NCBI GenBank assembly: GCA_030608005.1
Contig: JAUWIX010000013.1
Location: forward strand, 1-34,639
DNA from: Dehalococcoidia bacterium
GTDB taxonomy: Bacteria > Chloroflexota > Dehalococcoidia > Dehalococcoidales > BS750m-G39
Length of the DNA: 34,639 nucleotides
Direction: 5' to 3'
In this document: positions 4,782 through 19,107 of the stretch, in pieces
Layout: every line of letters starts with the position of its first letter
Position numbering within the stretch: position 1 is the first letter of the stretch
Notes under the pieces: model-generated
Database searches by the model: none
What the model saw: only the letters and a program-made list of their open reading frames with translations
Told to the model about the DNA's origin: nothing
Program-made: the position numbers and the translations under genes

Positions 4782-5579
4782 CTACTGTACCCAAGGGATT
4801 AAATCCTTCTTGCCAGTCATTTGCCTCTGCCATTGAGTAAATCTAAGTTTTACCGCTTTAATATTAGTATCATCGAGCGGATTCATATGACAAACAACGC
4901 ATCGAGATTTATAGACTTCATCAACGAACTGTGTGAACCACTCTATAGAAGGGATAATGTCAGGGACAATGTCTTTTTGTACTTGTCTAACTAAAGCAGG
5001 TAGTTGGGCAAGGTCAAGATAATCTATTGGACGAGCACCTCTTCTTTGATGCCAAGAGTTCTTCTTTTCATCGGACATTCGCTCACTGACCTTATCTTTT
5101 AATTTTCCAGCTTTTAAATCCCACCAATTATTACCATAGCGGTTAGTCATAAGGCGGTCAATGACTTCACGGATTGAATTTTCCAGAACATAAAGAAGAG
5201 GATATATTGCTGCCATATCCCTAGCTTCTAATAGCTTCCTTTTTTCTAGGATAGGGTCAGTAACTGTGAATTCCTTAGGAAATACAACAAATAGCTGTTT
5301 CTTTTCCGCCTCCCTCTTTCCTCTGCGAGCTAATTTAGCTATTATTGTTGTATCTTGAGTTATATGAGAAATTTGCTGTATGATACCTCTTACGCGATTA
5401 ACAGTATCTCTATCAAGATATTTGTCTAGGATAATGCCTTCCCACTGAGCGATTATATAGGTAGCGTCTTCCGTAGTGACTGCGTATTGTCTTTTTAATT
5501 TCTGCACTCGCTGAGAAAGCGCTTGCGGAGTGACATTGAGTTTTTTAAGCAATGCCTTACGGAGTCGTCTGTTTATCAC
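4782..5579 (-). CDS. Swt1-like HEPN domain protein, putative RNase effector
   Basis: AIYPLLYVLENSIREVIDRLMTNRYGNNWWD...SWHQRRGARPIDYLDLAQLPALV, C-terminal SRCVVCHMNPLDD (R-x4-H). GTG start with GAGG RBS; overlaps upstream gene by 23 bp. Confidence 0.75.
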   Translation of the reverse strand: MINRRLRKALLKKLNVTPQALSQRVQKLKRQYAVTTEDATYIIAQWEGIILDKYLDRDTVNRVRGIIQQISHITQDTTIIAKLARRGKREAEKKQLFVVFPKEFTVTDPILEKRKLLEARDMAAIYPLLYVLENSIREVIDRLMTNRYGNNWWDLKAGKLKDKVSERMSDEKKNSWHQRRGARPIDYLDLAQLPALVRQVQKDIVPDIIPSIEWFTQFVDEVYKSRCVVCHMNPLDDTNIKAVKLRFTQWQRQMTGKKDLIPWVQ

Positions 5580-6207: not shown

Positions 6208-8667
6208 CTAGCTCCATTCGCCACCCTTCTGCCACACCTGAGCTAGCTCTTTAGCCAGGAGATGGTGCTCAGGCTTTTCTAAACCGGGGTCTATTTCGAA
6301 GAGTCTTATTGCCTCACTACGAGCCAGCTCCAACAGAGCCACGTCAGAGAGCTTAGCCATGCGGAGGTCAGGAAGTCCGCTCTGCCTGGTGCCAAAGAAC
6401 TCCCCTGGACCCCGCAGCCTCAGGTCCTCCTCAGCCAATTGAAAGCCGTCCTGAATCTTCTCTATTAAATCCAGGCGCTCCCTACCTATCTCTGAGGGGT
6501 TTTGGGCTAACAGCATGCAGTAACTCTGCTCCTGCCCCCGCCCTACCCGACCACGAAACTGGTGCAGTTGCGATAGACCAAAACGGTCAGCGCTCTCCAC
6601 CAGCATCACGGTAGCATTGGGTACATCTATGCCCACCTCTACCACCGGGGTTGACACCAGCACATCCAGCTCGCCGGAGCGGAAGCGATGCATTACCTTA
6701 TCTTTTTCCACAGCCGGCATACGTCCGTGAATCAAGCCTAACCTCAGCTCAGGGAAGACCTCCCGGGACAGACGCTGATATTCAGCCACCGCCGCCTTAG
6801 CCTCAATAACCTCTGATTCCTCAACCAGGGGACAGATAATAAATGCTTGATGACCCTCAGCCGCCTGACGACGCAGAAAAGCATAGGCGCTATCCCTCTG
6901 GGCTGGCTTAAGCCATTTGGTCTTTATCACCTGTCTCCCCGGGGGGAGTTCGTCAATAACCGAGAGGTCAAGGTCACCATACAGGGTTAAGGCTAAGGTT
7001 CTGGGGATTGGCGTAGCCGTCATTACCAGCACATGGGGGTTAAACCCCTTCTGCCGTAGTGCTGAACGCTGGGCGACACCAAATCGGTGTTGTTCATCGA
7101 CCACAGCTAAACTCAAATGGTGGAACTCCACCTCCTTCTGAATAAGGGCATGGGTTCCGATAACAATATCAATATCTCCGCTCGTGATACGCTGCTGGAT
7201 TTCCTGCTTCCTAGCCTGGTTTATGTCACCAATAAGTAGCGCCACAGTAAGGGGATGAGATAAAAGCCCGGAGTAACTACGCAGGTTGTCTTCCCCTGCC
7301 ACTTGATGACCGGCTCTAGACATGAGCTGACAAACATTAGCGAAATGCTGCTCAGCCAGAATTTCAGTAGGCGCCATGAATGCCCCCTGATAGCCATTGG
7401 CAGCAGCAACAAGCAAGGCTGACGTAGCCACTATTGTCTTGCCACTGCCTACCTCTCCCTGCAACAGTCTGGACATCGGTCTTGGTTTCTCTAAATCAGC
7501 CAATAGCTCCCCAAGCACTCTGTGCTGAGCAGAAGTTAGCTCAAAGGGCAAAGTGCTTAGAAAAACATCCAGCACCGCTGTCTTAGCACTAAAAGGATTG
7601 CCCGGCTGGCTCTCCTGCCAGTCGTGTTTTCTTCCCAGCACTCCTAATTGAAGGATAAAGAGTTCGTCAAAAGCCAGACGAAGTCTTGCCCCATCCTTGG
7701 CTGCTTCATCCTCTGGGTAGTGAGCCTGACTTATCGCCTGAGGCAGGTCAAACAGGTGGCACCGCCGTCTCAACTCTGGGGGCAAAAAGTCCTCTACCTG
7801 CCATGCCCACTGGTCTACCACCTGTTTCATCAGTTTCCTTACCTGCCGAGGGCGCAGTCCCTGAGTAAGGGGATAGAGAGGAACCAGGCGCCCGGTATGA
7901 ATCAACTCTCTATCCTCCAATAGCTCCCACTCCGGGGATTCAAACACATGCCGCCCACCGAACAGGCTTACCCTGCCACTAAGAACTATTCGGGTATTAG
8001 TTGACAGCTTCCTCGCCAGGTAGGGATTATTAAACCATACCACCCTGACATTGCCTGTCTCATCGCCGACAATAGCCTCAGTGCCCCGCCTACCACCGAG
8101 CATAGTCACCTGAGCCTGCCACACATTAGCCATAATAGTTTGCTCCTCCCCCTCGGTAAGCTGGGAGATATATTTCCTTTGGCTATAGTCAAGGTGACGG
8201 TGGGGGAAGAAGTAGAGCAAGTCCCGAATGGTTTTCACACCCAAACGGTTGAACTTGGCAGCCAGACTGGTGCTAACCCCTCTAAGGGCGGTGATGGGGG
8301 AATTGATAGATTGACTAGCCACCACCCTCTGCCCCCTTGCTACTGGGGACGAGGGCACAATGCCTTCTTTTGGCAGCTTGACCTCGCCCTTTTCTAATTC
8401 AGACAAAAAAACGAACACCCTATTCGCCCACTCTTTGCGCTGCTGCTTGGTCAAAGAGGCATAATTAGAATCGACCAGTTGAAGTCTATGAAACTGGCTC
8501 AAAAGCTGGGGGTTAGTTATCGATTCTATGGCTTGACCTGCCCAGCGACGAAGGAATCTATCCAAACCACCGATTACCGCTGAATCTACATAACCCTTTT
8601 CATGCTCGAGCTCAAGAATCTTGCGCAGAGGCACGACATTTATTGACACGACTTGGTCTCCATCCAC
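6208..8667 (-). CDS. recG: ATP-dependent DNA helicase RecG
   Basis: LLQGEVGSGKTIVA (Walker A), VVDEQHRFG, VMTATPIPRTLALTLYGD, QFRGRVGRG. Confidence 0.97.
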   Translation of the reverse strand: MDGDQVVSINVVPLRKILELEHEKGYVDSAVIGGLDRFLRRWAGQAIESITNPQLLSQFHRLQLVDSNYASLTKQQRKEWANRVFVFLSELEKGEVKLPKEGIVPSSPVARGQRVVASQSINSPITALRGVSTSLAAKFNRLGVKTIRDLLYFFPHRHLDYSQRKYISQLTEGEEQTIMANVWQAQVTMLGGRRGTEAIVGDETGNVRVVWFNNPYLARKLSTNTRIVLSGRVSLFGGRHVFESPEWELLEDRELIHTGRLVPLYPLTQGLRPRQVRKLMKQVVDQWAWQVEDFLPPELRRRCHLFDLPQAISQAHYPEDEAAKDGARLRLAFDELFILQLGVLGRKHDWQESQPGNPFSAKTAVLDVFLSTLPFELTSAQHRVLGELLADLEKPRPMSRLLQGEVGSGKTIVATSALLVAAANGYQGAFMAPTEILAEQHFANVCQLMSRAGHQVAGEDNLRSYSGLLSHPLTVALLIGDINQARKQEIQQRITSGDIDIVIGTHALIQKEVEFHHLSLAVVDEQHRFGVAQRSALRQKGFNPHVLVMTATPIPRTLALTLYGDLDLSVIDELPPGRQVIKTKWLKPAQRDSAYAFLRRQAAEGHQAFIICPLVEESEVIEAKAAVAEYQRLSREVFPELRLGLIHGRMPAVEKDKVMHRFRSGELDVLVSTPVVEVGIDVPNATVMLVESADRFGLSQLHQFRGRVGRGQEQSYCMLLAQNPSEIGRERLDLIEKIQDGFQLAEEDLRLRGPGEFFGTRQSGLPDLRMAKLSDVALLELARSEAIRLFEIDPGLEKPEHHLLAKELAQVWQKGGEWS

Positions 8668-9615
8668 CTAGGCGAATAGCCGTGGGCAAGAAAACCTCAA
8701 CCTTGGTATATGTAAAGAGGGCAAAGAAATTCGCTTTCTGGAGGGCTCGCCTTCGCCAGCATCCTGCCTGATACTGCTCGCCTTCTCCCTCAAGGCTAAA
8801 ATCAAAGTCCCGGGACCACCATGAACCCCTAACGCTGGTCCCAGCCTAGCTATATGAATCCGTTCCCGGTCAAAGATAGAGGCTATGCGCTCCTTGAGTG
8901 AGCCGGCTTCATCAGGTGTGGTGCTATGAACAATGGCTAATTCCTGGATATTCAAGGTGTTCTTTACCAGGTCAAATAAACGGTCTATGCCTTTGGAGCG
9001 GGTACGGGCTAAACCAGCTTGAACAAGCTCACCATCCCGCATGGTAATTAAGGGCTTCACATTAAGCAAAGTGCCCACCATTGCCCTGGCTTTACTAATA
9101 CGCCCACCTAAAAGCAGGTATTTAAGGGTATCAAAAACACCGAATAGGCGAATACTAGGAATAGTCTGCCTTACCTCCTCCATTACCGCCTGCAAGCTTT
9201 CTCCCGCCTCAGCCAATCTGGCAGCCGCCATAGCTATCAACCCTAAGCCCATAGACGTTGAAAGCGAGTCTACTACCTCAATTTGGCAACCTGCCTTTAC
9301 CAGCTCCCTGCCCTGTAACGCTGAGTTATGGGTGCCGCTTAATTTGCTGGTAACCTGGATGGAGACTATCTCATCGGTCTCCTTTGACAGCTTACTGTAG
9401 ACATCGGCGAAGTCGGCAGGCGTAGGCTGGGAGGTAGATGGATGAACTGGGCTCTCCACTAATTTTTGGTAAAATTCATCCTCGCTTATGTCCACCCTAT
9501 CCCGGTAGACCTTTTCTCCAAAGCGTAGATAGACTGGCACCACGGTAATCCCCAGCTCCTGAGCCAATTGGACCGGGAGGTCAGCAGTGCTATCGGTAAC
9601 AATCTTGACTGTCAT
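8668..9615 (-). CDS. DegV family fatty-acid-binding protein (FakB-like), paralog 3, with extended basic C-terminus
   Basis: MTVKIVTDSTADLP...LLLGGRISKARAMVGTLLNVKPL...GVHGGPGTL; stop codon directly abuts the recG GTG. Confidence 0.93.
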   Translation of the reverse strand: MTVKIVTDSTADLPVQLAQELGITVVPVYLRFGEKVYRDRVDISEDEFYQKLVESPVHPSTSQPTPADFADVYSKLSKETDEIVSIQVTSKLSGTHNSALQGRELVKAGCQIEVVDSLSTSMGLGLIAMAAARLAEAGESLQAVMEEVRQTIPSIRLFGVFDTLKYLLLGGRISKARAMVGTLLNVKPLITMRDGELVQAGLARTRSKGIDRLFDLVKNTLNIQELAIVHSTTPDEAGSLKERIASIFDRERIHIARLGPALGVHGGPGTLILALREKASSIRQDAGEGEPSRKRISLPSLHIPRLRFSCPRLFA

Positions 9616-9643
9616 AAAAGCCTCCTACCCTTGCTTAATAGCT

Positions 9644-10483
9644 TTATCTATCCCCCAATATAGCTACCAACAGGAGACCGGGACCGGTATGTGTCCCGAT
9701 TACGGGGGTCATTTTTGAGCGGTAGATGCGCTCTGTGGGAAATATAGGGCTGAGCCGCTCAACCAGCGCCTCGGCTTCAGCAGGACAGTCAGTATCCTCT
9801 ACCGCCATCTCCTCAATATGGGAATAGCTCATAGCAAAGTCATATAAATAGTCTATTGCCTTAGCCCGGGAGCGGGTTCTGCCAGCAGGCTCAACCAACC
9901 CATCTTTTATGGTTATAATAGGATTTATCTTAAGCATTGACCCCAGCAAAGCCTGTGCCTTGCCGATACGCCCTCCCCTTTTGAGATACTCCAGGGTATC
10001 AAAGGCGGCACGAAAATCTACACGAGGAATGGTGTTTCGGGTTAGAGCTATCACCTCATCAAGGCTAGCCCCAGCGTTTGCTGCCTTAGCCGCAGTCATA
10101 ACTACGAATCCCTCTGCCATAGTAGCCCATTGCGAATCAACTACTTCTACCCGGCATTTCCGCTTCATTAGCCCTATACTTTGTAACGCCACCTCAAAGG
10201 TAGCACTAAGCTTGGAGCTAAGAATAATAGCCAGGATTTCATCCGTCTCTTCAGCTAGCTTATTATACGCCTCGGCAAAGGCTCCAGGCGACGGCACTGA
10301 AGTAACCGGTAGGGCTTTAGTGTACCTCAGCTTACGGTAGAACTGCTCAGCAGTCAGGTCAATGCCATCACGGTAGACCTTTTCGCCAAAACGGACATTT
10401 AGTGGAATGGCGGTAATGCCCAGCTCCCCAGCCACCTGAGATGGCACATCAGCGACGCTATCGGTAACAATCCTGACTGTCAT
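9644..10483 (-). CDS. DegV family protein (FakB-like), paralog 2
   Basis: MTVRIVTDSVADVP...KRGGRIGKAQALLGSMLKINPI...GTHTGPGLL. Confidence 0.93.
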   Translation of the reverse strand: MTVRIVTDSVADVPSQVAGELGITAIPLNVRFGEKVYRDGIDLTAEQFYRKLRYTKALPVTSVPSPGAFAEAYNKLAEETDEILAIILSSKLSATFEVALQSIGLMKRKCRVEVVDSQWATMAEGFVVMTAAKAANAGASLDEVIALTRNTIPRVDFRAAFDTLEYLKRGGRIGKAQALLGSMLKINPIITIKDGLVEPAGRTRSRAKAIDYLYDFAMSYSHIEEMAVEDTDCPAEAEALVERLSPIFPTERIYRSKMTPVIGTHTGPGLLLVAILGDR

Positions 10484-10488
10484 AGCTA

Positions 10489-11361
10489 TTATTTATCTCC
10501 CAGCACAGCTACCCCCAGAACCCGGGGACCAACATGCGCTCCAATTACTGGGCTCACCTTAGAGCGGTAGATGCGCTCTTTGGGAAATTTGGAACTAAGC
10601 CGCTCGGTCAGCTCATCTGCCTCATCAGGGGTGGTGGCATGCTCTACCGCCATCTCGTCAATATGGGAAAAGCTGGCAGCAAAGTTATATAAGTAATCTA
10701 TCGCCTTAGCCCGGGAGCGCTCCCTGGCAAAAGGAAACACTTCACCGTCTCTTAAACCGAGGACAGGGCTCACCTTGAGCACCGACCCCAGAAAAGCCTG
10801 TGCCTTACCAATGCGCCCGCCCCTTTTAAGGTATTCCAGGGTGTCCAAAACCATACGAACATCCACCCGGGGGATATTGAAGTGAGCTAGAGCCACCACC
10901 TCATCAAGGCTAGCCCCAGCGTCTGCTGCCTTAGCCGCAGCAATAACTATCAAACCCTGCGCCATAACAGCCCACAAGGAATCAACCACCTCTACTCGGC
11001 ATTTCCTCTTCATTAGCTCTTTAGCTTGTAGGGCTGCCTCATAGGCGGCACTGAGCTTATGGGAATTAGTAATGACAGCGATTTCGTCTGTCTCCTCAGC
11101 CAGCTTATTATATATATCAACGAACATGTCAAGGGGTGGTACTATGGTAGTGGGAAAGGTTTTGCTGTGCATCAGCTTATGGTAGAACTGGTCAGTGGTT
11201 AGGTCAACGCCATCGCGGTAGCTCTCAGTGCCAAAGAGAACATTTATCGGGATTACAGTAATTCCCAGCTCTCCAGCTACCTCAGAGGGTATGTCACCCA
11301 GACTATCGGTAACAATTTTGACTGCCATAACAGGACCCTCCCCTTTACTCCACAGAAACAA
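10489..11361 (-). CDS. DegV family protein (FakB-like), paralog 1
   Basis: MAVKIVTDSLGDIP...KRGGRIGKAQAFLGSVLKVSPV...GAHVGPRVL. Start may be the internal MAVKIV (M12). Confidence 0.92.
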   Translation of the reverse strand: MFLWSKGEGPVMAVKIVTDSLGDIPSEVAGELGITVIPINVLFGTESYRDGVDLTTDQFYHKLMHSKTFPTTIVPPLDMFVDIYNKLAEETDEIAVITNSHKLSAAYEAALQAKELMKRKCRVEVVDSLWAVMAQGLIVIAAAKAADAGASLDEVVALAHFNIPRVDVRMVLDTLEYLKRGGRIGKAQAFLGSVLKVSPVLGLRDGEVFPFARERSRAKAIDYLYNFAASFSHIDEMAVEHATTPDEADELTERLSSKFPKERIYRSKVSPVIGAHVGPRVLGVAVLGDK

Positions 11362-12979
11362 TATAGTTATAGTGAGGCTGACCGCCTGGAACTACCTCAA
11401 CCTGAAGTTGGGGGTGTTGTTGACGAATGGTGACGCCGACCTGCTCCGCTTCAGCCGGCTTGGTATCAGCCCCGTGGTAGATGGTAATCACCTCAGCGGA
11501 ATCTAAATCTACCCTAGCCAGCACCTCATTAAGAACAGCATCTGTCTTATCACCCACGGCTACCAGGTCTCCATCCAGAAAGCCGATTGCCTGTTTCTTC
11601 TTGATGTCCAATCCACCTAGCCGAGTTGAGCGTATAGCCCGGGTAATTTCAATAGACTTTACTGCTGATTTCGCTCTGTTCATATTCTGAGTGTTCGTTT
11701 CCAGGTCAGCCTCATAATCAAAGGCTAAAAGAGCAGCTACTCCCTGCGGGATTGTTTTGGCGGGCACCACTTCAATTGTTTTGGTGGTCAAGGACTGGAC
11801 TTGATTAGCGGTAAGCACTATATTTTTATTGTTAGGCAAAATAATAACCTTTTCCGAAACCACTGAGTCCACAGCCTGGAGCAAATCCTTGGTGCTGGGG
11901 TTCATTGTCTGTCCCCCGTGCACAATAGCTGTTGCTCCGAGGCTGGTAAAAACATTACTTAGACCCTCCCCAGCAACCACAGCCACAATAGCAATATCAA
12001 CCGCTGGCATCCTCTCCCTGCGCATCTCCAAGAAATCCCGGTACTGCTCATCCATATTGCGTATATTTATCTGATGCAAAGTGCCCAGGGGAATAACATA
12101 GCTCATAATATCACCAGGGTCTAAGGTATGAATATGAACCCTGACTGCTGAGTTGTCACCAACTACAATCACAGATTGCCCTCTCTTTTCCAGCCTCTTC
12201 CTAAGCTTATCAGGGTTAAGCCTTTGCCCCTTAATCACAAAATTAGTGCAATACCCGTAGGGCACTTCCTCTGCGCCCACCATTTGTGGCACTTTAGCAA
12301 TGAGTGGTACGCTACTGGCGATCATCCAGGGTCTGCGTAGCTTCAACTGCTCTACCTCGCCTTTAAGGTAGTGGAGAGCACCCTCCAGAATGGTATATAA
12401 ACCTTGCCCCCCAGCGTCCACCACCCCCGCTTCCATCAACACAGGCAGAAGACTAGGGGTATTAGCCACCGACTCCTTGGCAGCACCGACTGTAGCTTCC
12501 ATAACCGAGACTACATCATCACTAACATTAGAAGCATGCGCCTGGGCAGCCGATGCCGCCTCTCTAATTACGGTAAGGATAGTCCCTTCTACGGGATTGC
12601 TTAACCCTTTATACGCCACCGTTGATGCCTGTAGTAAAGCAGCAGCCAGTTCACTGCCAGTAAATGACTCCTTCTGTGCCAAACCCTGTGCCAAACCCTT
12701 CCAAATCTGGGACAGAATTACCCCGCTATTGCCCCGAGCCCCCATCAGTGCCCCCCTAGACATAGCTTGAGCTACGCTTGAAGCACTACCCTCAGAAGCT
12801 TGATAGGCTTCCTCCATAGAGGAACGCATGGTAAGCAGCATATTAGTCCCTGTATCTCCATCAGGCACCGGGAAGACATTCAGGGCATCAATATCTGCGG
12901 CGCTCTTCTCCAACCAGTCAGTGGCGGCAGCAAACATTTCCCTTAAATCTTGCCCAGTGATAGAATCGGCTTGTCCCAT
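11345..12979 (-). CDS. fakA: DAK2/FakA-family fatty acid kinase (YloV-like)
   Basis: LDALNVFPVPDGDTGTNMLLTM-type N-terminus, GARGNSGVILSQI, VVDAGGQGLYTILEG. Confidence 0.93.
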   Translation of the reverse strand: MGQADSITGQDLREMFAAATDWLEKSAADIDALNVFPVPDGDTGTNMLLTMRSSMEEAYQASEGSASSVAQAMSRGALMGARGNSGVILSQIWKGLAQGLAQKESFTGSELAAALLQASTVAYKGLSNPVEGTILTVIREAASAAQAHASNVSDDVVSVMEATVGAAKESVANTPSLLPVLMEAGVVDAGGQGLYTILEGALHYLKGEVEQLKLRRPWMIASSVPLIAKVPQMVGAEEVPYGYCTNFVIKGQRLNPDKLRKRLEKRGQSVIVVGDNSAVRVHIHTLDPGDIMSYVIPLGTLHQINIRNMDEQYRDFLEMRRERMPAVDIAIVAVVAGEGLSNVFTSLGATAIVHGGQTMNPSTKDLLQAVDSVVSEKVIILPNNKNIVLTANQVQSLTTKTIEVVPAKTIPQGVAALLAFDYEADLETNTQNMNRAKSAVKSIEITRAIRSTRLGGLDIKKKQAIGFLDGDLVAVGDKTDAVLNEVLARVDLDSAEVITIYHGADTKPAEAEQVGVTIRQQHPQLQVEVVPGGQPHYNYIVSVE

Positions 12980-13098: not shown

Positions 13099-13287
13099 TT
13101 GAAATGCGCTCTATGTGGCAAATCGCCTCAATTTGGTAACAATGTAAGCCACTCTAAACGTCATACCAAGCGTAGCTGGGTGCCTAATATTCATCCGGTT
13201 ACTCTCATCATAGATGGTAAGCCAAAAAGACTAAACCTGTGCACTAGATGCCTGCGCAATCAGCATAAAATGGCTAAAGTAGGCTAG
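13099..13287 (+). CDS. rpmB: 50S ribosomal protein L28 (zinc-ribbon form)
   Basis: KCALCGKSPQFGNNVSHSKRHTKRSWVPNIH...LNLCTRCLRNQ; probable TTG start at 13099 after aaaggggaaaagata. Confidence 0.93.
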   Translation: MKCALCGKSPQFGNNVSHSKRHTKRSWVPNIHPVTLIIDGKPKRLNLCTRCLRNQHKMAKVG

Positions 13288-13960
13288 CCCGGAGTTCTGC
13301 CAGGGCTTCGTTTACTGTCTGTCCCAAGCCAAACACTGCTGCTCCAACTACTAGCACCCTAGCTCCTGCCTTTACCACTCTGGGGGCAATCCCAGCATTG
13401 ATGCCACCATCCACCTCCAGCTCAGCAGTTAAACCCCTTTCATCTAGTTCAGCACGCAGGCGGGCTACCTTATCCAGCATAGCCTCAATAAAGCTCTGCC
13501 CGCCAAAGCCAGGATTGACCGTCATCACCAGGACCAAATCAAGGGAGGAAAGAACCTCCCTAAGCGCGTCTATAGGTGTGCCCGGGTTGAGAGCAACCCC
13601 TGCCTTAACCCCCAATCCCTTAATCACTTGCACCGCTCGGTGAATATGGGGACAGGCTTCTATATGAACGGTGATAATGTCAGCCCCAGCATCGGCAAAT
13701 TGACTGATTTGATGCTCTGGTGCCTCAATCATAAGATGGACATCCAGAGGGAGATTTGTCCAGTGACGAATGGCAGCCACCACTGGGGCACCAATGGTTA
13801 TTTGGGGGACAAAATGCCCATCCATAACATCTACATGAATATAATCAGCGCCGGCTTTAGTGACTTCAGCTACCTGCTCACCAAGGCGACTGAAATCGGC
13901 GGAGAGAATAGAGGAGGCAAGCTTGACCTGAGGGCTACTTTTCACCCCTAAAACCTCCAA
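13274..13960 (-). CDS. rpe: ribulose-phosphate 3-epimerase
   Basis: LASSILSADFSRLGEQV, IHVDVMDGHFVPQITIG, VNPGFGGQSFI, VDGGIN. Confidence 0.96.
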   Translation of the reverse strand: MEVLGVKSSPQVKLASSILSADFSRLGEQVAEVTKAGADYIHVDVMDGHFVPQITIGAPVVAAIRHWTNLPLDVHLMIEAPEHQISQFADAGADIITVHIEACPHIHRAVQVIKGLGVKAGVALNPGTPIDALREVLSSLDLVLVMTVNPGFGGQSFIEAMLDKVARLRAELDERGLTAELEVDGGINAGIAPRVVKAGARVLVVGAAVFGLGQTVNEALAELRASLL

Positions 13961-15359
13961 TTGTTTTCTTGGCAGTGGCTAACGCCCGCTCTACTTGCTT
14001 TGGGGCAGTGCCGCCGATAATATCCCTAGCGGCAATAGATGATTCTATAGTAATGGAGTAAACATCCTGCTCAAATAGGGGAGAAAAAACCTTATATTCA
14101 GCGAGGCTGAGCTCAGCGAAGGGTTTATCTTTTTCCATAGCGTAGCTTACCAGCCTAGCCACCAGAGCATGGGCGGTGCGGAAGGCTTCCCCCTTCTTGA
14201 CCAGATAGTCAGCTAGGTCAGTGGCTAAGATATAACCTTGCTCAACCGCCCGCCGGGTATTTTCTGGTTTAACCTGTAGGGTTTTAACCATCCCAGTGAA
14301 TACCTCCAGGGTGGATAGCAGGGTATCTACGGTATCAAAGAAACCCTCTTTATCCTCCTGCATATCTCTATTATAGGACAGGGGGAGAGCCTTCATAGTG
14401 GTCAGCAGAGCCATGAGCCTGCCATAGACCCTTCCCGTTTTACCTCGAGCCAGCTCGGCAACATCAGGGTTCTTCTTCTGGGGCATAATGCTTGAGCCGG
14501 TGGCATAAGCTTCATCAAGCTCAATAAAGTTGAACTCAGCAGAAGACCATAGAATAATCTCCTCTGCCAGTCTGGAGAGGTGCATCATAGTCAGACTGGC
14601 TGCCGCCTCATACTCCAATACGAAATCCCTATCTGAGACAGCGTCAATACTATTTTGGCTGAGCTGGCTGAAGCCAAGCTGGCGAGCTAGGAACTCTCTA
14701 TCAATATTTTTGTAGGCAACGCCAGCTAGAGCACCGCTGCCCAGGGGCATAACATCGGTGCGCTTCAGACAGTCGCTGAATCGGTCGGCATCACGCTGGA
14801 GCATCTCAAAATAGGCTAGAAGGTGATGAGCCAGCAGAACCGGCTGTGCCGGCTGTAAATGGGTATATCCGGGGATAATTATATCTTTATTGGCTTCAGC
14901 TAGGCTGATGAGAACCCGCTGAAGTTCCCTCAGCTTGGCCAGGGTGTCTGAGATTGCCTCCCTGGCAAAAAGGCGCAAGTCCAGAGCCACCTGGTCATTC
15001 CTGGAGCGAGCGGTGTGGAGCTTTCCCCCCACCTCACCCACCTTCTCCAGTAAGCGAGCTTCAATATTCATATGGATATCTTCCAATTCAGGCTTGAACT
15101 GAAACTTGCCCTGCTCTATTTCTTCCCTGATTGAAGCCAGCCCGCTGATAATAATCTCAGCCTCTTTGTCTGAGATTATGCCCTGCTTTGCCAGCATCCG
15201 GGCGTGGGCAATGCTGCCAGCAATGTCATAGGGGTACAGGCGCCAATCAAAGGGGATAGAAGCAGTATATTCAGCTACCAATTTATCGGCAGGCTTATGA
15301 AAACGACCGCGAATATGGCTCATATTAACCTTCTCATGCGGTTCTCTTCCATAGTTCAT
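13935..15359 (-). CDS. argH: argininosuccinate lyase
   Basis: GKLHTARSRNDQVALDLRLF, GYTHLQPAQPVLLAHH, GSSIMPQKKNPDVAEL. Confidence 0.97.
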   Translation of the reverse strand: MNYGREPHEKVNMSHIRGRFHKPADKLVAEYTASIPFDWRLYPYDIAGSIAHARMLAKQGIISDKEAEIIISGLASIREEIEQGKFQFKPELEDIHMNIEARLLEKVGEVGGKLHTARSRNDQVALDLRLFAREAISDTLAKLRELQRVLISLAEANKDIIIPGYTHLQPAQPVLLAHHLLAYFEMLQRDADRFSDCLKRTDVMPLGSGALAGVAYKNIDREFLARQLGFSQLSQNSIDAVSDRDFVLEYEAAASLTMMHLSRLAEEIILWSSAEFNFIELDEAYATGSSIMPQKKNPDVAELARGKTGRVYGRLMALLTTMKALPLSYNRDMQEDKEGFFDTVDTLLSTLEVFTGMVKTLQVKPENTRRAVEQGYILATDLADYLVKKGEAFRTAHALVARLVSYAMEKDKPFAELSLAEYKVFSPLFEQDVYSITIESSIAARDIIGGTAPKQVERALATAKKTIGGFRGEK

Positions 15360-15362
15360 CCT

Positions 15363-16208
15363 TTAAGATAAAGTTATACCTAGATGCAGGTTGATTTTAT
15401 TCTCCAGTAGGGCTATGAAGTTATCAAGTTTTGGTGTTGGTTGCTTCGTGAAAGCTGTGAGAAGGTTGTCTATTGTAGAGGATCTCTTATCAACTAATTT
15501 TAAATGATAGTTGTCACTCTGCCTTGATAAATCATAAATAAAGAAAGAGGTACTATTTTGTGGGTTGTATTCTAGGTTAACTAAATTAAATCTATTAACT
15601 GTATTTTGAAAAATATACGGAGGACACACCCAAACTATCTTTTTCTGCCATTTCTCCAGAGTTTGCCCCTTATATAATATCTGCGTGTATGCCAATTTTA
15701 TTGTATTGTATGTGTTCATCCCGTAATTATATCTTCTCGCTGAAACATCTTCCCCATTAAGGAAATCCTTTAAGGCATTAACCAATTTACCCGTGTTTGT
15801 TGTAGAATCTGATTGGAATTCCACGATACAAAAATCCTCAACCTTGTTACTGATTGGTTTATGTTTAACTAACACGAAATCGAATGTTCCAACCGCTGTC
15901 AACCCAACTTCTTTAAACAAGAGTATATTGTTAGCCCCGCCTAAGAATTCGTTACATATGTCAATAAACACTATGTCATCTTGCAGAAATCTGTGAGGAC
16001 ATATTGGAATTGAGTTCCCCATATGTAGCACAGAACATACTCCCATAGGGTAAGACAGCATTCGACTTTGCTTATCGCACTTTTTATCCATAAATGGGCA
16101 CCAATATTTAGCCCTATTCTGTTGAGCTCCTTGCGTTGAAATATCAACGGGATACCCGAAGATCTCTACGGGATGATGACTGTTTTTTGGTTGAAGCATC
16201 TCTGACAT
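15363..16208 (-). CDS. NotI-family type II restriction endonuclease
   Basis: Cys-rich metal-site segment YWCPFMDKKCDKQSRMLSYPMGVCSVLHMGNSIPICPHRF; catalytic-like FDFVLVKHK...DFCIVEFQSDST (D...ExQ); adjacent to a methyltransferase. Confidence 0.8.
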   Translation of the reverse strand: MSEMLQPKNSHHPVEIFGYPVDISTQGAQQNRAKYWCPFMDKKCDKQSRMLSYPMGVCSVLHMGNSIPICPHRFLQDDIVFIDICNEFLGGANNILLFKEVGLTAVGTFDFVLVKHKPISNKVEDFCIVEFQSDSTTNTGKLVNALKDFLNGEDVSARRYNYGMNTYNTIKLAYTQILYKGQTLEKWQKKIVWVCPPYIFQNTVNRFNLVNLEYNPQNSTSFFIYDLSRQSDNYHLKLVDKRSSTIDNLLTAFTKQPTPKLDNFIALLENKINLHLGITLS

Positions 16209-16211
16209 CGT

Positions 16212-17804
16212 CTATCTCTGAAGGATTACAATTTCTTCTGGCAAGGGGATTTTATGATTAGTACTCCTACGTATTCTAAATAGCTCTTTCCTACAATTGT
16301 TATAACCTATACTCTTTGCCAAAGTAATTAGAATGTCACCCACAGGAATCAATACCCCTTTGACAGTTTGTTCGCCTACTACTAACAGGAAATGCCCACC
16401 ATTTGTTAATAGCGGATAGATTTCTCTCATACATAGGTACATATCGCCAAAATATTCCCTAACCATCCTTGGGTAATCAAACCCCCAATTCTTATCCTTA
16501 GTTTGTTCGTAAATCTTATCAGCTACATCACTTATCTCGCTGAAGTGTTGTACTACCTTTGCTGAGTCGCTCTCTTTGAATATAAGCTTCGTACTGCTCT
16601 TAACCATTTTACGCTTCAATTTTTGTATATCAGCCATACTATTGACAAAATCTAATAGGTAGAGCTCCAGTCTAGTTTGTCTAGTGTATTCCAGATCATT
16701 AGGATAAGGTGGAGACGTAATAATAAAATCAATGGAGTTATTATCTATATATTTTTGTGTATTCAAACAAGTATCATTTATAACTTTTGACCTGCCAAAA
16801 TGATTATATTGCTGTATTAGCTTCAAATCATCGTACATGCGTATGACAGTTTCACTAAATATACCCCAGAATTCTCCCTTTTCTCTAAAGGGATAAAAAG
16901 TAGTGCCTGGGCACAATGCGACATAAGAAGCTTCGAAGCAAGACCTTGACAAGGCAAGTAGGAGAAGTTCCCTTACCCTTTCGTCCTCAACATTAAGTAT
17001 TATACGTTTGAGTATAGAAACTTCCCTTTGCAAAACTGGACTTAACCATTGATTTATTTCCTTTTTAGGCATCTTTGCTATTGATTTATCTAAGAACTCA
17101 ATGTGGCCTAGATCCTTAACCTCGATTAGAAATTTCTCGGCAACTAATACGACTTCTTTTTTGAGTCTTTCCAAGTTTATATCCCAAGTCGTCTTCACTT
17201 TGGATACGAACGCCATAAGAGGATTAGTATCAAACCCGACGGCATCTATATGCAACATATTCGCAGCAACTAATGTTGTTCCACTTCCACAGAAGGGGTC
17301 TAGTACCAAACAACCTTTTTGAATATTGTATTCCCTAATCTTATTTTCAATCAGCCGGTAAGGGAAATCTTCAAGATAGCCATACCATTTATGGATTATG
17401 CCATGCTTATTAACTTCACTGATATTCTGTCTCTCCAAGAACAACATCAATTGAGTTGGTTGATTATTAAAGTTATCAATAAGAGTCTTCGAATAGTGTT
17501 TATGAGTAGTGTCGCTCTTCTCTATTACTTTCTGAAAGAGATCAAGTCTATCTTCGGGTACGGAGAATAAAGAAGGCTGATCAGGGTAGCCTATTAGGAA
17601 TCGTTTCTGAATGAGTGCCTTAATAGCACCTAAGAGTATCTTACTCGATTTTGGGTAATCGGTAAGTTCAGCGAGTTCCTCAAGAGATGTACCTTCCAAC
17701 TTGCTTATGTTCAAATATATTCTTTCCAAAACTTGTGCTTGCAGAAAAGGGAGATTGTTTGGTGAACGTGTGCTTGTATTTTTGTTTTCTATAAACTCAA
17801 CCAT
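16212..17804 (-). CDS. DNA methyltransferase (N4-cytosine or N6-adenine class) of the R-M system
   Basis: LVLDPFCGSGTTLVAANMLHIDAVGFDTNPL (SAM motif) and IITSPPYPNDLEYTRQTRLELYLLDF (catalytic SPPY). Confidence 0.9.
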   Translation of the reverse strand: MVEFIENKNTSTRSPNNLPFLQAQVLERIYLNISKLEGTSLEELAELTDYPKSSKILLGAIKALIQKRFLIGYPDQPSLFSVPEDRLDLFQKVIEKSDTTHKHYSKTLIDNFNNQPTQLMLFLERQNISEVNKHGIIHKWYGYLEDFPYRLIENKIREYNIQKGCLVLDPFCGSGTTLVAANMLHIDAVGFDTNPLMAFVSKVKTTWDINLERLKKEVVLVAEKFLIEVKDLGHIEFLDKSIAKMPKKEINQWLSPVLQREVSILKRIILNVEDERVRELLLLALSRSCFEASYVALCPGTTFYPFREKGEFWGIFSETVIRMYDDLKLIQQYNHFGRSKVINDTCLNTQKYIDNNSIDFIITSPPYPNDLEYTRQTRLELYLLDFVNSMADIQKLKRKMVKSSTKLIFKESDSAKVVQHFSEISDVADKIYEQTKDKNWGFDYPRMVREYFGDMYLCMREIYPLLTNGGHFLLVVGEQTVKGVLIPVGDILITLAKSIGYNNCRKELFRIRRSTNHKIPLPEEIVILQR

Positions 17805-17874
17805 AGCAAAGCAATCCCTAATTAATCGGATAGTTTCCTGCAGGATATGTCAAGACCAAACACATGTTGATATA

Positions 17875-19107
17875 TTATACTACCTTTTCCTCCAAACTGC
17901 TGATACCCTGTGCCTGAGCCTGGGTTCTGGCCGGTAATCCCCAGATGTGGATAAATCCAGGGGAGGCACTCTGGTCAAACTGGTCGCCTTTATCATAGGT
18001 AGCCAGACCATAGTTATATAATGACTTTGGTGACTTGCGCCCGACGACAGTTGAATGCCCCTTGAGTAGCTTTATCCTTACTGTCCCGGTAACATAGCGC
18101 TGTGAGCTGAGTATGTAGGCAGAGAGGTCCCTATTTAGCTGGCTAAACCAGAGACCGTTGTAAATAAGGTCGGCATATTCCACAGCCACCTTTTGCTTAA
18201 AACGCAGTTGTGCCTTGGCTAGGGTCATCGCCTCCAAAGCCTGGTGCGCCTGTAGTAATACTGTAGCTGCCGGCGCTTCATAAATCTCCCTTGATTTTAT
18301 CCCCACCAGCCTATTCTCTAAATGGTCAATCCTACCTACCCCGTGCTCACCAGCTAACTGGTTCAGCCGCTGGATTAAGCTAACGCCATCCATTTCCTGC
18401 CCATCAATGGTAATCGGGATGCCCTGTTCAAAGCCAATCTCTACATAGCCTGGCTCATCTGGAGCCTTGTCAGGAGACTTTGTCCAGACAAAGACATCAG
18501 CAGGTGGCTCAACCCAGGGGTCCTCAAGAACCCCACACTCAATACTCCTCCCCCACAGGTTCTCATCAATGGAATAGGGGCTAGCAGCAGTAACAGGCAC
18601 CGGAATCCCATAACGCTGAGCATAGTTGATGGTTTCTTCCCGGGTCATGCCCCATTCCCGAGCTGGGGCGATAATTTTGAGGCTGGGTGCTAAGGCACTG
18701 ATGCTCACCTCAAACCTCACCTGGTCATTCCCCTTGCCGGTGCAGCCATGAGCTACGGCTGAAGCCCCCTCCTTTAGGGCGGTATCCACCAGCAACTTAG
18801 CCATTAACGGACGAGATAGGGCTGTAGCCAAAGGGTATTGTCCCTCATAGAGGGCGTCCGCCTGTAGGGCGGGGAAGATAAAATATTTGACCAATAACTC
18901 CTTGGCATCCTCCACCAGCGCCTTCACTGCGCCGATATCGAGCGCCTTCTGACGAACAGCGGAAAAATCTCGCTCATTGCCCACATCAACATTAAGGGCA
19001 ATAACATCCAGGTTATACCTCTCTTTGAGCCATCTGATAGCTACTGATGTATCTAACCCACCACTATAAGCCAGTACTACTTTATCACGCTTAATTGGAA
19101 CTATCAT
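17875..19107 (-). CDS. argG: argininosuccinate synthase
   Basis: VVLAYSGGLDTSVAIRWLKERY, AVAHGCTGKGNDQVRFE. Confidence 0.97.
   Translation of the reverse strand: MIVPIKRDKVVLAYSGGLDTSVAIRWLKERYNLDVIALNVDVGNERDFSAVRQKALDIGAVKALVEDAKELLVKYFIFPALQADALYEGQYPLATALSRPLMAKLLVDTALKEGASAVAHGCTGKGNDQVRFEVSISALAPSLKIIAPAREWGMTREETINYAQRYGIPVPVTAASPYSIDENLWGRSIECGVLEDPWVEPPADVFVWTKSPDKAPDEPGYVEIGFEQGIPITIDGQEMDGVSLIQRLNQLAGEHGVGRIDHLENRLVGIKSREIYEAPAATVLLQAHQALEAMTLAKAQLRFKQKVAVEYADLIYNGLWFSQLNRDLSAYILSSQRYVTGTVRIKLLKGHSTVVGRKSPKSLYNYGLATYDKGDQFDQSASPGFIHIWGLPARTQAQAQGISSLEEKVV

Follow-up and report, generated by a model that had tools for sequence, protein, structure and literature searches.

Restriction-modification (R-M) systems are thought to act as small mobile and self-preserving units, which at times become established in operons whose genes are needed. 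Those of the PabI family have been found in operons for glutamate and histidine, in Helicobacter and Campylobacter (PMC4615327, PMC10273834), and an addiction or operon-maintenance idea has been proposed for these insertions (PMC4615327). NmeDI is located between pheS and pheT in Neisseria meningitidis (PMC7973814), at a locus whose content differs between strains (PMC3082526). Among restriction endonucleases, NotI possesses an iron-binding Cys4 motif and a glutamine that replaces the usual lysine (PMC4081073).

Here, we analyzed a stretch of 34,639 nucleotides from a Dehalococcoidia bacterium (the window), in which the genes of a DNA methyltransferase (M) and of a NotI-family restriction endonuclease (R) are found between argG and argH. 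The block resembles the PabI-family systems in being an R-M pair inserted co-directionally in an amino-acid biosynthesis operon, although the enzymes are unrelated (PabI is a restriction glycosylase) and both the operons and the bacteria are different. With NmeDI it shares the position between two genes of one operon; enzymes, operon and bacteria differ again, and the variation at NmeDI is one within a species, not between families. Since the block is co-directional and its flanking partners are adjacent in relatives, it can be counted among the operon-inserted R-M systems. Insertion of R-M systems into operons has already been described (PMC4615327, PMC7973814), and what the window adds is a divergent NotI branch.

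Very probably, a horizontally acquired type II R-M module was inserted in the end of argG or behind it, with M modifying and R restricting DNA, and with argH being translated independently. This reading draws on the genes observed, with the motifs of their families, on a site that is empty in relatives, on the foreign composition of the block, and on the start of argH.

Organization of the Locus

All genes concerned lie on the minus strand and are transcribed in the order argG, M, R, argH and then rpe. The argininosuccinate synthase gene argG (17875..19107; NCBIfam argG equivalog) forms the upstream flank of the insertion and is separated by a leader of 70 nt (17805..17874) from M (16212..17804; 530 aa), which is followed after only 3 nt by R (15363..16208; 281 aa). 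A spacer of 39 nt (15324..15362) leads to the argininosuccinate lyase gene argH (13935..15323, with a corrected start; TIGR00838, 5.7e-189), whose end is overlapped by the ribulose-phosphate 3-epimerase gene rpe (13274..13960; TIGR01163, 2.5e-83). The ORF positions and the Pfam matches agree with the initial annotation, which had described a co-directional NotI-like R-M pair between argG and argH; the 3-nt junctions that it reported hold for M-R, but not for R-argH and argG-M. The block had also been called more AT-rich than its arg flanks, as is borne out by a GC content of 36.7% in M and 36.4% in R vs. 50-51% in argG and argH. A two-change-point fit placed the borders of this composition at 15219-15363 and 17875-17919. 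The C-terminus of ArgG, QGISSLEEKVV followed by the stop, is like that of the nearest relative G002, QGISDLEEDIGRK followed by the stop, as far as LEE and diverges after it.

The genome assembly is in draft state, with 38 contigs, and the GC content shifts abruptly at the block, as would be expected if a foreign M-R fragment had been misjoined into the arg operon during assembly or binning. Such an artefact is extremely improbable, since argG (90-91%) and argH (88-93%) are intact and both close to the same relatives (G006 and G002), both edges of the block coincide with gene ends, and comparable inserts are present in other genomes of the order.

The leader between argG and M contains a TTGACA hexamer, with no convincing -10 box. 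Scans for promoters and terminators in the M-R-argH stretch and in the M leader gave results no better than those on shuffled sequences, and an Rfam search returned no match. Transcription of M and R would probably come either from argG, by read-through, or from a weak promoter within the 70-nt leader, and rpe, downstream of argH, would likewise depend on read-through. The motif CCTGCAGG in the M leader was considered as an autoregulatory site and rejected: it occurs 11 times in the genome, and is absent from the examined stretches upstream of M in the two loci with homologous pairs (L048 and L049, see below).

The Endonuclease and the Methyltransferase

R matches the Pfam family NotI (PF12183) with 47.6 bits (E 1.8e-12), the curated cut-off of this family being 22 bits. 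In an alignment of 11 members of the R family, four cysteines of the N-terminal module (C37, C44, C58, and C70) are invariant, as are D110, E130, and Q132, which form a D...ExQ active site, that is, a site of the PD-(D/E)XK type with glutamine in place of lysine. A search with the single sequence of R against NotI gave no significant match (E 1.6), and the profile built from the alignment finds NotI (3bvq) at 9.5e-8, with the cysteine and ExQ regions lined up. The Cys4 module, the D...ExQ site and the profile match are thus common to R and NotI; R differs in its score, as most PF12183 members of the same class exceed 200 bits, and in its partner methyltransferase, which is of another type. As judged from its sequence, R is a divergent member of the NotI family. 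The structure model of R has a pLDDT of 32.6, which is too low to read a NotI fold from it. As a putative nuclease of the NotI fold, with an N-terminal Cys4 module for metal binding, R would cut unmethylated incoming DNA.

It would be unsafe to take GCGGCCGC as the recognition site of R. One copy of this sequence is present in the host genome and none in G002, which carries no R; avoidance of NotI sites was discarded as a test of specificity because of this equal scarcity.

M is matched by Pfam N6_N4_Mtase above the cut-off of that family (2.5e-17) and labeled MTase_II by PADLOC. Its motif I, DPFCGSGTT, lies at about residues 169-177 and TSPPY at residues 363-367, an order and a motif that are typical of N4-cytosine enzymes. 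M would methylate the host DNA, probably as N4-cytosine. The N-terminal part of about 125 aa falls outside the Pfam match and has no Pfam hit of its own; a low-confidence model of it is weakly helix-turn-helix-like. Most of the NotI-family loci examined in the same class adjoin Dam-like IDPPYT methyltransferases, and plasmid members of the family adjoin adenine, cytosine or TSPPYW-type methyltransferases. Here, a methyltransferase of the TSPPY type is combined with a divergent NotI branch, and the pair is a candidate for a new specificity among rare cutters.

Probable Horizontal Acquisition of the Block

In order to compare the junction, 156 genomes of the order were searched, and those in which argG and argH lie close together on the same contig and strand were taken as comparable. 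This left 119 genomes after G429, in which argG and argH are 490 kb apart on one contig, had been removed by hand from 120. The argG and argH matches are less than 300 nt apart in 113 of the 119 and farther apart in six. The initial annotation had taken argG and argH to be usually adjacent, as this comparison confirms, and the empty site in these 113 genomes excludes that the block is ancestral at the arg locus in all relatives. R itself has a single homologue in 60 relatives, of 28% identity, in G057. The distance between argG and argH is no more than 4 nt in most relatives, many of which show a 4-nt overlap of the two genes; we conclude that the ancestral arrangement was a tight argG-argH junction, broken by the insertion. 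On the other side of argH, rpe is adjacent in 41 of 45 comparable relatives.

Two homologous pairs were found in other metagenome-assembled genomes (MAGs). The pair of locus L048, from the unclassified MAG CSMAG_2763, is 65% (R) and 66% (M) identical to that of the window, and the pair of L049, from the Nitrospirae MAG RIFCSPLOW2_12_42_9, is 58% identical in both proteins. The order M-R is kept and the spacing is close in both, so that the adjacency of M and R, which is a criterion for type II R-M systems, is conserved. The neighborhoods differ: in L048 the pair is located upstream of a branched-chain amino acid permease gene, and in L049 it is found about 0.5 kb after a gene of the Csm6-HEPN type and before another methyltransferase gene. 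Horizontal acquisition is the best reading of the block. The proposal that the block entered the arg operon horizontally is therefore well supported by the comparisons made here, namely by the empty site in relatives, the AT-rich composition, and the nearest homologues in unrelated MAGs.

As to the vehicle, no integrase, transposase or repeats that could account for movement were detected at the block edges. Insertion of R-M systems with long target duplication has been reviewed (PMC3874152); between 13000 and 20500, no direct repeats of some 100 bp were found to flank the block. No homologue was present in phage records or viral contigs, and the plasmid homologues of R are only 26-29% identical. 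According to the proposed course of events, a compact type II R-M module would have entered the last codons of argG, or the DNA just behind them, as M followed by R.

Translation of argH

A start of argH at 15359 and a coupling of its translation to that of R had been suggested for this locus; neither could be upheld. The ATG at 15359 just happens to be the first one in frame downstream of a stop codon, and the TIGR00838 match starts at residue 17 of the resulting longer ORF. In nearly all relatives argH starts with MSHIRGR or an equivalent, and this conserved start maps to 15323 in the window, where GAGAAGG-TTAAT-ATG leads into the start codon. With the real start at 15323, the spacer after the R stop is 39 nt long and holds a Shine-Dalgarno sequence of argH's own (GAGAAGG, 15335-15329), as is also indicated by the leaders of the relatives.

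If argH translation depended on R, the module would be protected, since its loss would shut off argH. Such a dependence would be in line with the co-directional arrangement of M, R, and argH, between which there is neither a convincing terminator nor a promoter that exceeds chance, and with the operon maintenance proposed for inserted R-M systems of the PabI family (PMC4615327). We consider it quite improbable, because argH has its conserved start and Shine-Dalgarno sequence after R, the start at 15359 being an artefact, and because precise excision of M-R would restore the ancestral argG-argH junction. A promoter of argH inside R had been named beforehand as a finding against coupling; as a candidate it was dropped, since the scan was no better than shuffles.

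In the preferred reading of an inserted module with independently translated argH, argH would be translated from its own native-type ribosome-binding site and arginine synthesis would be kept. The module may have gained stability from its place between the arg genes, as in the proposal for the PabI family (PMC4615327, PMC10273834). The argH leader is possibly the stranded 3' tail of the old argG. Because no alignment of this 39-nt leader, which is short and purine-rich, with the argG tails of relatives rose above composition controls, the exact breakpoints are not fixed.

Other Inserts at arg Junctions of the Order

Inserts with methyltransferase genes were also found at arg junctions of other genomes of the order. 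The argG-argH insert of G034 (L098, G034:C16, 1478-3438) codes for a TSPPYN methyltransferase and for ORFs of 232 aa and 100 aa, the larger of which carries an E-x-K motif and is unrelated to R; its GC content is 0.44 vs. 0.58-0.59 in the flanks. At the same junction, G387 (L100, G387:C20, 1321-4327) has a 673-aa N6 methyltransferase and a 333-aa ORF with a weak match to type II endonucleases (9.5e-5), whose end falls in the ATGA of argH. Immediately upstream of argH in G387, 23 nt match the native argG tail of G038 without a difference and in the same register. This indicates that the insertion took place within the argG tail, and that the old tail was left before argH together with its ribosome-binding site. 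The insertion in the window may fit the same picture. In G482, an insert at the argH-rpe junction (L110, G482:C28, 204-1968) contains a TSPPY methyltransferase of 428 aa and a 166-aa ORF. M has only short motifs in common with the methyltransferase of G387 and is 22% identical to that of G482.

Unrelated methyltransferase modules are thus present at the argG-argH junction in genomes of three families, that of the window included, and at argH-rpe in a fourth. This distribution hints at a recurrent landing site but falls short of proof, since the other three inserts at the argG-argH junction hold metabolic genes (see below). Unrelated modules at one junction in different families constitute a natural replicate of the settling of R-M systems in operons, and allow testing whether operon position guards such modules against loss.

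A more general reading would regard the argG-argH junction, or the whole arg operon, as a recurrent niche for unrelated R-M modules in the order, of which the window is one of many. It is favored by the modules of G034, G387, and G482, by the old argG tail left intact before argH in G387, and by the frequency of PF01555, which has 284 matches in the 156 genomes: at the argG-argH junction 0.13-0.18 cases are expected (with 1200-1700 genes per genome) and two were seen, the seed included. However, as one of these two was our starting point, the enrichment is suggestive only, and with the seed left out the probability of one further case is about 0.12-0.17. Moreover, three of the six argG-argH inserts are metabolic genes, namely AMP-dependent ligase genes in G020 (L097, 1688-3286) and G022 (L102, 1307-2914) and a CoA transferase gene in G437 (L101, 1387-2661); the single control junction examined, argH-rpe, which is wider than 300 nt in 4 of 45 genomes, also held a module in one of these four (G482); and the partner ORFs are only weakly supported as endonucleases. 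We therefore regard this general reading as rather doubtful. The same holds for the course of events that it would imply, a tentative one, in which inserts would land in the variable 3' tail of argG, leave the old tail and its ribosome-binding site stranded ahead of argH, and persist because of the arginine genes on either side.

Changes in argG itself were observed in two further genomes. In G005 (L099, G005:C6, 331-1761), an argG of 476 aa with a C-terminal LuxR-type helix-turn-helix-like extension is located ahead of argH. In G463 (L107, G463:C15, 4893-5465), argG is cut to an ORF of 190 aa that lacks about residues 135-311, and a 46%-identical argG homologue is present elsewhere in the genome.

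Elsewhere in the window, three DegV-family genes follow in a row (8668-11361, minus strand) behind a gene of the FakA/YloV type (11345-12979), with recG (6208-8667) after them. A gene with a HEPN_Swt1 domain (4782-5579, minus strand) has a GC content of 0.39 and is possibly another acquired gene.
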